Positions 36,192-49,223 of a stretch of DNA of 64,000 bases are shown in pieces. How positions within the stretch are numbered: position 1 is the first letter of the stretch; the number at the start of each line of letters is the position of its first letter. Under the pieces are notes generated by a model that saw only the letters and a program-made list of their open reading frames with translations, searched no databases and was not told the origin of the DNA. The stretch spans positions 1 to 64,000 of the forward strand of contig CAMNOU010000010.1 in NCBI GenBank assembly GCA_946546945.1, given 5' to 3'. Position numbers and translations under genes: made by a program. The stretch is from an uncultured Lachnospiraceae bacterium (GTDB taxonomy: Bacteria > Bacillota > Clostridia > Lachnospirales > Lachnospiraceae).

Positions 36192-36200
36192 ATCATCATT

Positions 36201-36322
36201 TTATCTCAGTGTGAGAGACTCCCACTGAGATAAACGCTCCGCGAGGATGCGCAGGAATTCGGTTTGGAAGATGTCAGCTGACGCTGACCCGAATTCCGCG
36301 CCAAGTCTCACGAGCGAGACTT
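36201..36322 (+). repeat. structured intergenic repeat, copy A
   Basis: Shares a layout with the element at 48301. Hairpin P1 is TTATCTCAGTG (36201-36211) with CACTGAGATAA (36223-36233). A conserved linker follows (CGCTCCGCGAGGATGCG begins at 36235). P2 is GGAATTCGG (36254-36262) with CCGAATTCC (36289-36297). P3 inside P2 is GTCAG (36273) with CTGAC (36284-36288). Then comes GCGC and terminal hairpin P4, AAGTCTC (36303) with GAGACTT (36316-36322). The strand choice is arbitrary. P4 overlaps the last codons of the 91-residue gene on the - strand. No mobile-element gene is attached. Confidence 0.75.
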
Positions 36323-36583
36323 GAACATACTCAGCAGAAGATCTGCTTTCCGGCGGTCTGCCGGGCTCATGGACTGTTTCAGATATTCCACCAGAAGGGA
36401 AGTCTCATCCGGAGAGAACCGGATGCCTTCCCCTCTGGCCCTGTTTGAAAAAGCCATCAGAAGAGCCAGCATTTCCTTCGGAGCGGCCGGTTTCTTCTGG
36501 TTCATAAAATTCATCAGAAATTCCATCTTCTGATCAGACAGATTCTGAAAAGCCGGATTTGAAAAAAAATCATCTGTTTGCAT
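36308..36583 (-). CDS. hypothetical protein, 91 residues (first of a paralogous pair)
   Basis: A soluble, mostly helical, charged protein with no motif I recognise. Its C-terminal stretch SPADRRKADLLLSMFK resembles SPREQESIDLLLSFYDF in the next gene upstream, so the two appear related. The ribosome site GAGGAA precedes the ATG. Its last codons (KSRS and stop) lie inside terminal hairpin P4 of the structured repeat, so the repeat may have replaced an older C-terminus. Real gene: probable, since it is paired and in the same direction as its neighbour, 15 bases away. Confidence 0.65.
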   Translation of the reverse strand: MQTDDFFSNPAFQNLSDQKMEFLMNFMNQKKPAAPKEMLALLMAFSNRARGEGIRFSPDETSLLVEYLKQSMSPADRRKADLLLSMFKSRS

Positions 36584-46695: not shown

Positions 46696-46744
46696 GTATC
46701 AGTGGGAGTACAATCTCCCATCTGATACTCGCAGGCGCGAGTAT
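46696..46744 (+). repeat. short structured repeat, copy C (overlapping hairpins)
   Basis: P1 is GTATCAGTGGGAG (46696) with CTCCCATCTGATAC, and P4 is ATACTCGC (46725-46732) with GCGAGTAT (46737-46744). The P4 left arm overlaps the P1 right arm, so the two are mutually exclusive. It has no linker or P2, unlike copies A and B, so it could be a truncated relative or independent. Confidence 0.45.
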
Positions 46745-46779
46745 TGAATGATTATAAAAAGAGGGAGAGGGTTACCGTC

Positions 46780-48231
46780 ATGAAAAAGATTCTTTTTGCA
46801 GCATCAGAGTGTGTGCCGTTTATTAAGACAGGAGGCCTTGCCGATGTATGCGGAGCATTGCCGAAAATGTTTGACAAAAAGGAGTGGGATGTCCGGGTAG
46901 TCATTCCGAACTACTCCTGCATTCCTGAGCATTTCCGCAATCAGTTTGAGTATGTGACACATTTTTATATGGGGACCGGCCCCTATATTCCGAGCAAATA
47001 TGTCGGAGTTCTCAAGTACGAGCTGGACGGGATCACCTATTATTTTATTGACAATGAAGAGTACTTCAACTGTTTTCTTCCCTATGGCAATATACGCTAT
47101 GATATCGAAAAGTTCGTCTTTTTCGACAAGGCAGTACTGTCCATGCTTCCGCTGATCGGTTTCCAGCCGGATCTGATTCACTGCCATGACTGGGAGACCG
47201 GCATGATTCCGGTCTACTTAAAGACGGAGTTCCAGGGCGACATGTTCTTCTGGGGGATGAAGTGCATGATGACCATCCACAATCTGAAATTCCAGGGGAT
47301 CTGGGATGTCAAGACAATGATCGGACTGACGGGACTTCCGAAGAGCCTCTTCACTCCGGATAAGCTGGAGTTCCAGAAAGATGCGAACATGCTCAAGGGC
47401 GGACTGGTCTATGCAGACTATATTACCACAGTCAGTGATACCTATGCGGAGGAGATTCAGACGCCGTATTACGGAGAAGGACTGGACGGACTGCTGTCTG
47501 CGCGCCACTTCGATATGAAGGGTATCGTGAACGGCATCGACTATGATCTTTATAATCCTGCTACGGATGAGCATCTGTTTACGAATTACGATGTGGATTC
47601 CTTCCGTAAAAAGAAGGTTACCAATAAAAAGAAACTGCAGGAGATGCTCGGCCTGACCGTGGATTCCCACAAGTTCATGATCGGACTGATTTCCCGTCTG
47701 ACAGATCAGAAGGGACTGGATCTGATCGACTACTGCTTCGAGCGCATCGTGGATGAATTTACACAGGTCGTTGTCATCGGTACCGGTGAAGAACACTATG
47801 AGAACATGTTCAAGCATTATGCGTGGAAATATCCGGACCGTGTATCCGCGAACATCTGCTACAACTCGGATCTCGCTCAGAAGCTGTATGCGGGAGCGGA
47901 CGCTTTCCTGATGCCGTCCAGATTCGAACCGTGCGGACTGACACAGCTGATGGCGTTCCGCTATGGTACCGTGCCGATCGTGCGTGAGACCGGCGGTCTG
48001 AAAGACACCGTGATTCCTTATAATGAGTATGAAAATACCGGAACAGGCTTCTCGTTCTCAGATTACAACGGGGAGGATATGCTCCATGTCATCAACTATG
48101 CAAAACAGGTATTCTTCGAGCAGAAGAGATACTGGAATCAGATGGCAGAGCGGGGCATGCGTTCCGACTTCTCCTGGAAAGTATCCGCAGAAAAGTACAA
48201 AGAGCTCTACAACTATCTGATCGGCGCCTGA
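46780..48231 (+). CDS. glgA: Glycogen/starch synthase (GT5)
   Basis: Transfers glucose from ADP-glucose to growing glycogen. From the supported ATG it is 483 residues, the usual length. It has the N-terminal FIKTGGLADVCGALPK (ADP-glucose lysine), and PSRFEPCGLTQLMAFRYGT with the second catalytic Glu in the C-terminal half. An in-frame start 36 bases upstream is less likely; the chosen ATG has GGGAGAGGG upstream. No other glycogen gene is adjacent. Confidence 0.95.
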   Translation: MKKILFAASECVPFIKTGGLADVCGALPKMFDKKEWDVRVVIPNYSCIPEHFRNQFEYVTHFYMGTGPYIPSKYVGVLKYELDGITYYFIDNEEYFNCFLPYGNIRYDIEKFVFFDKAVLSMLPLIGFQPDLIHCHDWETGMIPVYLKTEFQGDMFFWGMKCMMTIHNLKFQGIWDVKTMIGLTGLPKSLFTPDKLEFQKDANMLKGGLVYADYITTVSDTYAEEIQTPYYGEGLDGLLSARHFDMKGIVNGIDYDLYNPATDEHLFTNYDVDSFRKKKVTNKKKLQEMLGLTVDSHKFMIGLISRLTDQKGLDLIDYCFERIVDEFTQVVVIGTGEEHYENMFKHYAWKYPDRVSANICYNSDLAQKLYAGADAFLMPSRFEPCGLTQLMAFRYGTVPIVRETGGLKDTVIPYNEYENTGTGFSFSDYNGEDMLHVINYAKQVFFEQKRYWNQMAERGMRSDFSWKVSAEKYKELYNYLIGA

Positions 48232-48262
48232 CAAGTTCCGCCCAAGGCGTACTTGATTATAG

Positions 48263-48308
48263 CCGCCGCATTCATGACCGGAAAGATCATGGATGCGGCG
48301 GTTTGTTA
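48263..48308 (+). terminator. terminator after glgA
   Basis: CCGCCGCAT pairs with ATGCGGCGG, extended by CATGA with TCATG, and is followed by TTTGTTAT. The T run merges into the palindrome of the neighbouring repeat. Confidence 0.75.
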
Positions 48309-48443
48309 TGTCATAGGAAATCGCGATTTCCTATGACATAACAAACGCTCCGCTAAGGATGCGCAGGTGCGCGTACAAGGAATTATGTCGGTAAACTGAC
48401 CGCGCACCGCGCGAGAGTTTCGCAAGCGAAATTCTTTGTTATG
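48301..48443 (+). repeat. structured intergenic repeat, copy B, with a 46-bp perfect palindrome
   Basis: P1 is a perfect inverted repeat of 23 bp per arm with no loop (48301-48346, centre TCGCGA). The conserved linker CGCTCCGCTAAGGATGCG begins at 48346. P2 is GGTGCGCG (48366) with CGCGCACC (48401-48408). P3 is GTCGG (48387) with CTGAC (48396-48400). P4 is GAGTTTCG (48415) with CGAAATTC (48427-48434), loop CAAG. TTTGTTATG right after P4 can also pair with CATAACAAA of the P1 right arm, closing the whole element. Together with copy A this shows helix covariation. Confidence 0.8.
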
Positions 48444-48503
48444 AATAGAATTGCCTGTGCCGTCCATACTAAACACAGATTATTGAAGGACAGGGAGGCA
48501 GTG

Positions 48504-49223
48504 ATGAAACAGAAGCGAGAAGAAGAGCGGATTTTGGAAGCAGCTGCGGAACAGAAGTACAGAGAAGACAGTGCAGAGGATGTGCTGGAGACCGGACAGA
48601 TCCGGATGTCGAACAGCCGGCAGCAGCACAGTATTCATCTGTTGTCGATCATCGGTGAGGTGGAAGGACATGAATGCCTTCCGTCAAATTCGAAGACGAC
48701 CAAGTATGAACATATTCTGCCGAAACTGGCACAGATCGAGGATGATGCTTCCGTTGACGGCGTGCTCATCCTGCTGAATACGGTTGGCGGGGATGTGGAG
48801 TCCGGGCTGGCGATTGCAGAAATGATTGCTTCTTTAAGCAAACCTACGGTCTCGCTGGTCCTGGGCGGAAGCCATTCGATCGGGGTACCGCTGGCAGTGT
48901 CGGCGGATTATTCCTATATTGTACCGACCGGCACGATGGTCATCCATCCGGTCCGCCTGTCCGGCACGGTGATCGGTGCTCCGCAGACCTATGATTATTT
49001 CAGATCGATGCAGGATCGGATCGCCGGATTTATAGAGGCCCACTGCATGGTGAAAGCGGAACGGATCGAAGAGATGATGATGAACACAGGCATGATGACG
49101 AAAGACCTGGGGACGATTCTCGTGGGACATGAAGCTGTCGCAGAAGGAATTATCAACGAAGTCGGGGGGATTTCGGAGGCTGTGGCGAAGCTGCATTTTA
49201 TGATCCGGGAAAGAATGATCTAG
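48504..49223 (+). CDS. TepA-like ClpP-family serine protease
   Basis: Cytoplasmic ClpP/crotonase-fold protease, 239 residues from the ATG with GGGAGG upstream. The N-terminal charged segment (about 1-40) is followed by the ClpP fold. The nucleophile Ser lies in LGGSHSIGVPLA and the His in MVIHPVRLSG. In Bacillus TepA lies next to spoIIIE; here uppP lies between. TepA function in Bacillus is not well understood. Confidence 0.88.
   Translation: MKQKREEERILEAAAEQKYREDSAEDVLETGQIRMSNSRQQHSIHLLSIIGEVEGHECLPSNSKTTKYEHILPKLAQIEDDASVDGVLILLNTVGGDVESGLAIAEMIASLSKPTVSLVLGGSHSIGVPLAVSADYSYIVPTGTMVIHPVRLSGTVIGAPQTYDYFRSMQDRIAGFIEAHCMVKAERIEEMMMNTGMMTKDLGTILVGHEAVAEGIINEVGGISEAVAKLHFMIRERMI

Follow-up and report, generated by a model that had tools for sequence, protein, structure and literature searches.

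An ORF-less family of structured mobile repeats in Lachnospiraceae and the complementarity of its foot to flanking DNA

Introduction

The stretch of Lachnospiraceae DNA analysed here, 64,000 nucleotides in length and referred to as the window, contains a perfect palindrome of 46 bp without a loop (48301-48346) downstream of a glycogen synthase gene. The next-best loopless palindrome in the window has arms of 11 bp, and chance alone would give about 1e-9 loopless palindromes with 23-bp arms in a sequence of 64 kb. The first-pass annotation treated the locus, together with a counterpart at 36.2 kb, as a candidate family of structured intergenic repeats under selection on RNA or single-stranded DNA structure. 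The locus raises the question of what kind of element carries such a palindrome and how it came to lie behind this gene. We conclude that the element is a real mobile family, to be filed with the ends-only single-strand elements, and that our searches found no enzyme that moves it; the mobility of the family, which is the main result here, had no place in the earlier annotation.

Results

Layout of the window copy

The palindrome consists of perfect arms at 48301-48323 and 48324-48346, as annotated, and is followed by a linker and by helices P2, P3, and P4, with the helices of the element running to approximately 48440. P2, of which the annotation had given only the core arms (48366-48373 and 48401-48408), is lengthened past a bulged A by GCGC/GCGC, and a conserved one-sided GGAA-type bulge lies within it at 48374-48386. 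P3, described as GTCRG with CTGAC, is present as GTCGG/CTGAC with one G-T pair (48387-48391 and 48396-48400). Fold z-scores for 48301-48443 were -8.00 with DNA parameters and -7.98 with RNA parameters, none of 200 shuffled sequences being equally stable. The counterpart at 36.2 kb is real, and a search of the 64-kb window with our covariance model, R1, returned these two copies only (48301 and 36205), both of them training rows. The features are as follows.

36205-36325, + strand: second copy, type A short form, after ATCATTTTAT (36195-36204); R1 core match at 36236-36326, 103.9 bits, for a training row
48263-48301, + strand: terminator-like (intrinsic) hairpin 3' of the glgA-like gene, arms 48263-48277 and 48287-48301
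48302-48309, + strand: TTTGTTAT, terminator tail read as target flank from its sequence and from type B flank-foot matching; complementary to foot positions 48338-48345
48310-48337, + strand: P1, the left-end (LE) hairpin, GTCATAGGAAATCG / CGATTTCCTATGAC, conserved among type B copies of the same genome
48338-48346, + strand: foot, a putative guide, ATAACAAAC; exact match to its own flank and unlike type B feet of the same genome (ATAAAAAGC, ACAAAAATGC)
48347-48362, + strand: linker hairpin GCTCC-GCTAA-GGATGC, based on alignment pair and loop counts; this copy is without a GNRA loop
48361-48412, + strand: P2, composed of GCGC, bulged A, GGTGCGCG / CGCGCACC, GCGC; encloses the GGAA-type bulge and P3
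48414-48435, + strand: P4, the right-end (RE) hairpin, AGAGTTTCGC-AA-GCGAAATTCT, arms 48414-48423 and 48426-48435
48436-48440, + strand: probable right end of the element from type B flank comparison, type B copies mostly ending in CTCTTTGTT; last base uncertain by 1-3
48347-48438, + strand: core as scored by R1, 67.4 bits, the copy itself being one of the 49 training rows

The gene upstream is glgA-like (ORF 46744-48231, with a Glyco_transf_5 match). A terminator scan of 48150-48600 called no terminator-like site, probably because the T-run behind the hairpin at 48263-48301 is interrupted and the loop of this hairpin measures 9 nt. The palindrome had been annotated as part of the element; perfect as it is over 46 bp, the outer 9 bp of its left arm (48301-48309) most likely represent terminator and target DNA, judging from the empty sites of type A and C copies described below. 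The annotation had also proposed that the sequence after P4 pairs with the right arm of P1 and so encloses the element. The pairing TTTGTTATG/CATAACAAA is indeed present in the window copy (48435-48443 with 48337-48345) but is not a feature of the family, given that other type B feet and the bases that follow their right ends differ. Downstream lies a Clp-protease-like gene with a mechanical ORF start at 48441, although its start is probably at 48504, behind GGGAGG.

Structure and covariation of the family

Family members are ORF-less and roughly 120-180 bp long, with two main terminal types, A and B, in the source genome. From left to right they comprise a left hairpin that begins right at the flank, a foot at the 3' base of this hairpin, a TCC-loop-GGA hairpin, the P2/P3 hairpin with its one-sided GGAA-type bulge, and P4, which is followed by TTGAA in type A and by T-rich sequence in type B. 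The left hairpin occurs in a short or a long form, the latter with a second, inner left arm. Truncated copies are found as well, some lacking the 5' and some the 3' portion.

For the core alignment (A1), 109 of 135 candidates were kept, 26 being removed by length or by a hand list of false matches; 52 representatives less five (L003:1115, L003:1502, L063, L070, and L158) plus the two window copies gave 49 rows, with L274 trimmed. A left-end alignment (A2), in which the foot was misaligned, was left out of the counts. The linker TCC/GGA was invariant in all 49 aligned members, and 33 had a GNRA loop. The covariation suggested by the annotation was strong: changes on both sides affected 22 of 32 pairs, a number reached in 0 of 500 shuffles, and 94% of cells in the paired columns were paired, a value that neither shuffled nor slid structures came near. 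The MAFFT alignment misplaces some subfamilies, leaving gaps in P2, and the effect is to reduce these pair counts, not to inflate them. Without a given structure, RNAalifold recovered 18 pairs, 13 of them with double changes, and missed P3 and lower P2.

Differences between the two window copies, which the annotation had read as covariation, are so only in part. Module exchange between types contributes to them, as seen in the chimeras L007 and L011; L007 combines a type B left end with a type A right end. Furthermore, G-U pairs made up just ~37 of the 1433 paired cells (~2.6%), a rarity that seems no less compatible with DNA hairpins, or with template switching between the arms, than with RNA. 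Selection on RNA or single-stranded DNA structure is only one possible reading of the covariation. On its left side, the annotated P1 most likely pairs target DNA with the foot.

The structure may instead work as a cellular RNA, such as a terminator, a processing or regulatory element, or a guide-RNA-like molecule, with mobility being secondary. The strong covariation would be expected of such an RNA, type B copies lie in sense orientation behind genes, and the linker hairpin with its GNRA loop together with the conserved GGAA-type bulge exceeds what two end hairpins would need. We nevertheless consider a cellular RNA function unlikely, given that type A copies occur in either orientation without a consistent gene context, that G-U pairs are rare, and that two valid TnpB queries (G155 and G103) revealed no tnpB beside the examined copies.

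Distribution

The source genome (2.77 Mb, 92% complete) contains 40 occurrences of the exact linker, more when mismatches are allowed, and at least 55 R1 matches, so that the annotated family is indeed structured and multi-copy. Further copies in related genomes, which the annotation had recommended seeking, were found in 17 of the 20 genomes of the genus at 0-59 R1 matches per genome (E <= 0.001, with up to 150 candidates scored per genome), each count being a minimum. A strict linker pattern matched 11 of 397 genomes sampled across Lachnospiraceae, the source genome included. This pattern is narrow: the genus member G159 had no pattern match versus 59 model matches.

A scan of named-species genomes yielded at least 48 members that passed a structural filter, among at least 110 genomic and 16 viral stretches; the viral stretches all failed. 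The 34 members examined for taxonomy belonged to Lachnospiraceae or to other Clostridia, Eubacteriales, or Eubacterium. At least 78 matches failed the filter and were set aside as presumed chance matches to the linker, most of them in loci of at least 55% GC but 17 not, and real members are present among these failures (for example, L155, L212, L215, and L220). One member compared with plasmid and phage collections had no match.

No Rfam family matched the element in a scan of the whole window, which did detect a T-box leader elsewhere (2356-2582, 113 bits). Three copies, representing both window types and a long-form relative, likewise gave nothing near a gathering score at E values up to 10. 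A keyword search of open-licence papers, together with passages of the candidate-RNA catalogue PMC8040213, returned no published description, ISfinder being outside the scope of this search.

Insertion sites

At locus L179, a 173-bp member lies within one of three near-identical tandem genes, and the other two provide the empty site. All three genes have CAGCGGCTATAT, which is followed by TGATGCC in two of them and by the 173-bp element and then TGATTCC in the third. In a blastn comparison, blocks 1-509 and 510-1000 of an empty copy (95.5% and 98.8% identity) directly adjoin each other there, and in the filled gene the element separates them at precisely this point, with no target duplication, no bases lost, and TATAT already in the empty site. 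The target gene had no match in Pfam (E 0.001) or NCBIfam (E 0.01); it may be Rpn/PDDEXK-like. In the second case, a type A copy interrupts a Y1 tnpA gene on contig C35 of the source genome at ATTCAT^CTTATCC (the caret marks the junction). Inspection by eye placed the flanks ATTCAT and CTTATCC in frame with DYIH-LLVDC of homologous TnpA, at the HUH motif, the contig holding 31 bases of 3' flank. Both pre-insertion sites that could be read thus show members entering on the 3' side of a short T/A-rich sequence, with no target DNA duplicated or lost.

Two other classes of element were considered at L179. A DDE-type MITE was ruled against by the lack of a target-site duplication, and an IS110, serine, or tyrosine recombinase element by the lack of a core common to the junctions GGCTATAT^CAG and CTTGAA^TGATT compared with the empty GGCTATAT^TGATG.

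None of 14 orthologous glgA-downstream regions, from the 19 other genomes of the genus, contained a copy, with intergenic divergence blurring the exact empty sequence. No empty site was readable for type B, and the T-rich flank of this type could be part of the element rather than target.

Flank and foot

Flanks in the source genome were compared for at least 54 copies, those with identical 30-base flanks having been removed. In a set of 86 copies, from which 17 without a detectable left end and five with too short a flank were left out, flank and foot were complementary at 292 of 344 positions, compared with a mean of 230 and a maximum of 248 in 5000 shuffles, although these shuffles overstate independence because subfamily copies are related. 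The most frequent combinations of flank tetramer and foot complement were TTTA/TTTA (19 copies), TATA/TATA (16), and TTTT/TTTT (13). Among 41 type B-like rows, at least one of which (L222) is a chance match, the contiguous match between flank and foot averaged 5.8 bases, compared with 1.3 bases when flanks and feet of different copies were crossed, a result reached in 0 of 5000 shuffles. There are exceptions: type A flanks in G000 are often TTCAT even though the foot would pair fully with TTTAT (11 copies combine TTCA with TTTA), and in several type B copies only 0-2 bases of the flank match the foot.

The gene upstream of type B copies, as determined with a simple ORF caller, was co-oriented in 10 of 11 cases and within 100 bp in eight of 11. 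Most sense-strand T-runs form the tail of a terminator, so that an A-rich foot may suffice to place type B copies behind terminators.

The foot of the window copy, dissimilar to those of its relatives, matches the flank GTTTGTTAT with zero mismatches, and the foot of L393, AAAATAAC, different in sequence, likewise matches its own flank and not its relatives. The window palindrome may have originated when a rare foot met a rare target; alternatively, the foot may have been rewritten after insertion by arm-to-arm template switching, which seems the simpler account. Such hairpin-templated correction might even account for the covariation as well as for the perfect palindrome, with no selection on structure. 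PMC8604942 describes template switching as homogenising the arms of inverted repeats. Double changes in the core are mostly Watson-Crick, and both unusual feet depart from their relatives exactly toward their own flanks. Template switching nevertheless leaves the conserved core sequence and conserved unpaired bulge unexplained, as it does the cross-genus architecture and insertion behaviour, and we view correction without selection as a possible but doubtful account.

Candidate movers

Within the genus, copy number was higher in the eight genomes with a Y1 transposase (median, 26) than in the 12 without (median, 9; p = 0.02, uncorrected for kinship), and it showed no association with reverse transcriptase in the same 20 genomes (p = 0.41). 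No Y1 gene was detected in the copy-rich drafts G404 (at least 37 copies), G414 (at least 38), and G408 (at least 24), and no reverse transcriptase in G404 or G414. A search of 54 tnpA loci for type A and C end motifs, many of these loci stopping at contig ends, found none with element ends; motifs were present only in L088, the interrupted gene itself, and in L322, where a copy lies ~1 kb from the tnpA match. An autonomous parent was found neither among 48 foreign copies nor at the tnpA loci, nor in tblastn searches of the collected loci with TnpA, RAYT-like, and TnpB proteins. Given that the tnpA loci are partial, an unsampled parent IS is possible. The 3' end of an IS605-like locus on contig C17 showed by eye no likeness to the element. 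A lone left-type hairpin without a linker lies downstream of this degenerate locus (G000:C17; L111:2607-2650).

The G-rich strand carried 26 of 48 type A and C copies (p = 0.67), indicating no preference; the bias of type B (10 of 11) is confounded by terminators.

REP/REPIN-type elements moved by a RAYT (TnpA-REP) are similarly palindromic, intergenic, abundant, and free of duplication, and longer RAYT-like Y1 genes exist in some carriers. Members of our family are, however, larger than REPs, given as 21-65 nt in the relevant section of PMC6006769. A GT[AG]G foot was not seen by eye, the copy-rich genomes G404 and G414 had zero PF01797 matches, and no RAYT-like gene was flanked by elements, with L097 as the sole partial exception; movement by a RAYT is therefore very unlikely. 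At L097 (900-2400), a RAYT-like gene has different repeats of its own (GGGGACGGAGACAGGTTCC), and a 3'-truncated left end and a linker with a GGAA tetraloop lie ~400 bp upstream of it. In two genera (L095 and L098), Y1 genes with PF01797 matches adjoin another ORF; we presume the former to be RAYT-like and the latter prolyl-tRNA-synthetase-like.

RNA-mediated movement as a miniature group IIC-type retroelement, reverse-splicing behind terminators with a foot that pairs with the flank as EBS1 does with IBS1, formally fits the exact junctions, the lack of duplication, the pairing with the 5' flank, the terminator preference of type B, and the 5'-truncated copies. The hallmarks of group II introns are a GUGYG start and domain V. 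Neither was seen when sought by eye, the Rfam scans gave no group II intron match, 3'-truncated copies occur too, and G-U pairs are few. PF00078 (RVT_1) was found in only six of the 20 genomes in the genus; G000, G159, G404, G412, and G414, with at least 36-59 copies each, gave no match. We regard a retroelement as the least probable of the explanations considered.

Discussion

The explanation that we favour, and consider probable, is that of a non-autonomous, ORF-less family moved in trans by an IS200/IS605-like single-strand enzyme, with the target chosen through pairing with the foot. Such an enzyme, acting on single-stranded DNA in the "peel and paste" manner of IS200/IS605 TnpA, would read the left and right hairpins, excise copies, and insert them in trans at a target picked by the foot. 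Feet of types A and C (ATAAA, ATATA) would direct copies to TTTAT, TTCAT, or TATAT, and those of type B (such as ATAAAAA) to T-runs, mainly behind intrinsic terminators, which would explain why the window copy lies behind the glgA terminator. Its 46-bp palindrome would arise either because the foot matches the interrupted T-run or because template switching later corrected the foot to match. More speculatively, and with a probability that we put clearly lower, the family may be a gene-free transposable element naturally programmed for its targets by DNA-DNA pairing with the foot 3' of the left hairpin. The feet of subfamilies would then define separate niches (T-runs behind terminators, TTTAT/TTCAT, and TATAT), a foot could be rewritten to a new flank after landing, and a single-strand transposase that has so far escaped recognition would move the family.

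According to passages in PMC7290912, PMC5934647, and PMC6006769, elements of the IS200/IS605 group enter on the 3' side of a short sequence, duplicate nothing, and read the target by means of a guide next to the hairpin. Palindrome-associated transposable elements (PATEs), described in part of PMC7290912 as ends-only derivatives of this group, resemble our family in being ORF-less, in having a hairpin at both ends (here P1 and P4), in inserting without duplication 3' of a tetra- or pentanucleotide, and in their expected movement in trans. As in IS200/IS605 PATEs, the putative guide is complementary to the left flank, the TTCAT flanks in G000 being exceptions. Our family differs from PATEs in that no parent IS sharing its ends was found and in its conserved multi-helix interior, its guide-like foot on the 3' side, and the lack of strand bias in type A; the last of these also sets it apart from IS608 and ISDra2, for which a section of PMC6006769 gives a lagging-strand preference. 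As in IS608, the target flank appears to be recognised through base pairing to element DNA next to the left hairpin. In natural IS608 the guide is found on the 5' side of the hairpin (parts of PMC5934647 and PMC7290912), and pairing of the target with the 3' side is presented in a portion of PMC5934647 as an engineered extension, whereas the foot of our family lies 3' of the hairpin and its complementarity occurs in nature. The family would thus be a natural case of the scheme engineered for IS608, and the idea of target pairing can be tested directly because feet differ between its subfamilies.

REP/REPIN elements are also high-copy, gene-free intergenic palindromes, from which the family differs in size, foot sequence, and the lack of an associated RAYT. 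Group IIC introns insert behind terminators without duplication, their 5' flank pairing with internal sequence. The family shares these properties, the position behind terminators being that of type B, but no ribozyme matched in Rfam and several copy-rich genomes had no detected reverse transcriptase. HEARO/IscB and TnpB omega RNAs are structured sequences within IS200/IS605-like elements, and many HEARO copies lack an ORF. Our family likewise places a structured sequence within an element of IS200/IS605-like behaviour, yet the Rfam scans contained no HEARO match and no TnpB was found beside the examined copies with the two queries. The element explains a terminator-associated repeat, adds to Lachnospiraceae a high-copy mobile family without an Rfam match, and cautions that covariation in palindromic repeats does not necessarily indicate RNA function.

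Several copies depart from the common architecture. L278, L281, and L282 have in common ~50 nt of extra sequence between the linker and P2, and L009 and L030 contain a different insert after P3. In L274 and L276, the right end is followed at once by the beginning of a further left hairpin, an arrangement that suggests tandem or nested insertion.
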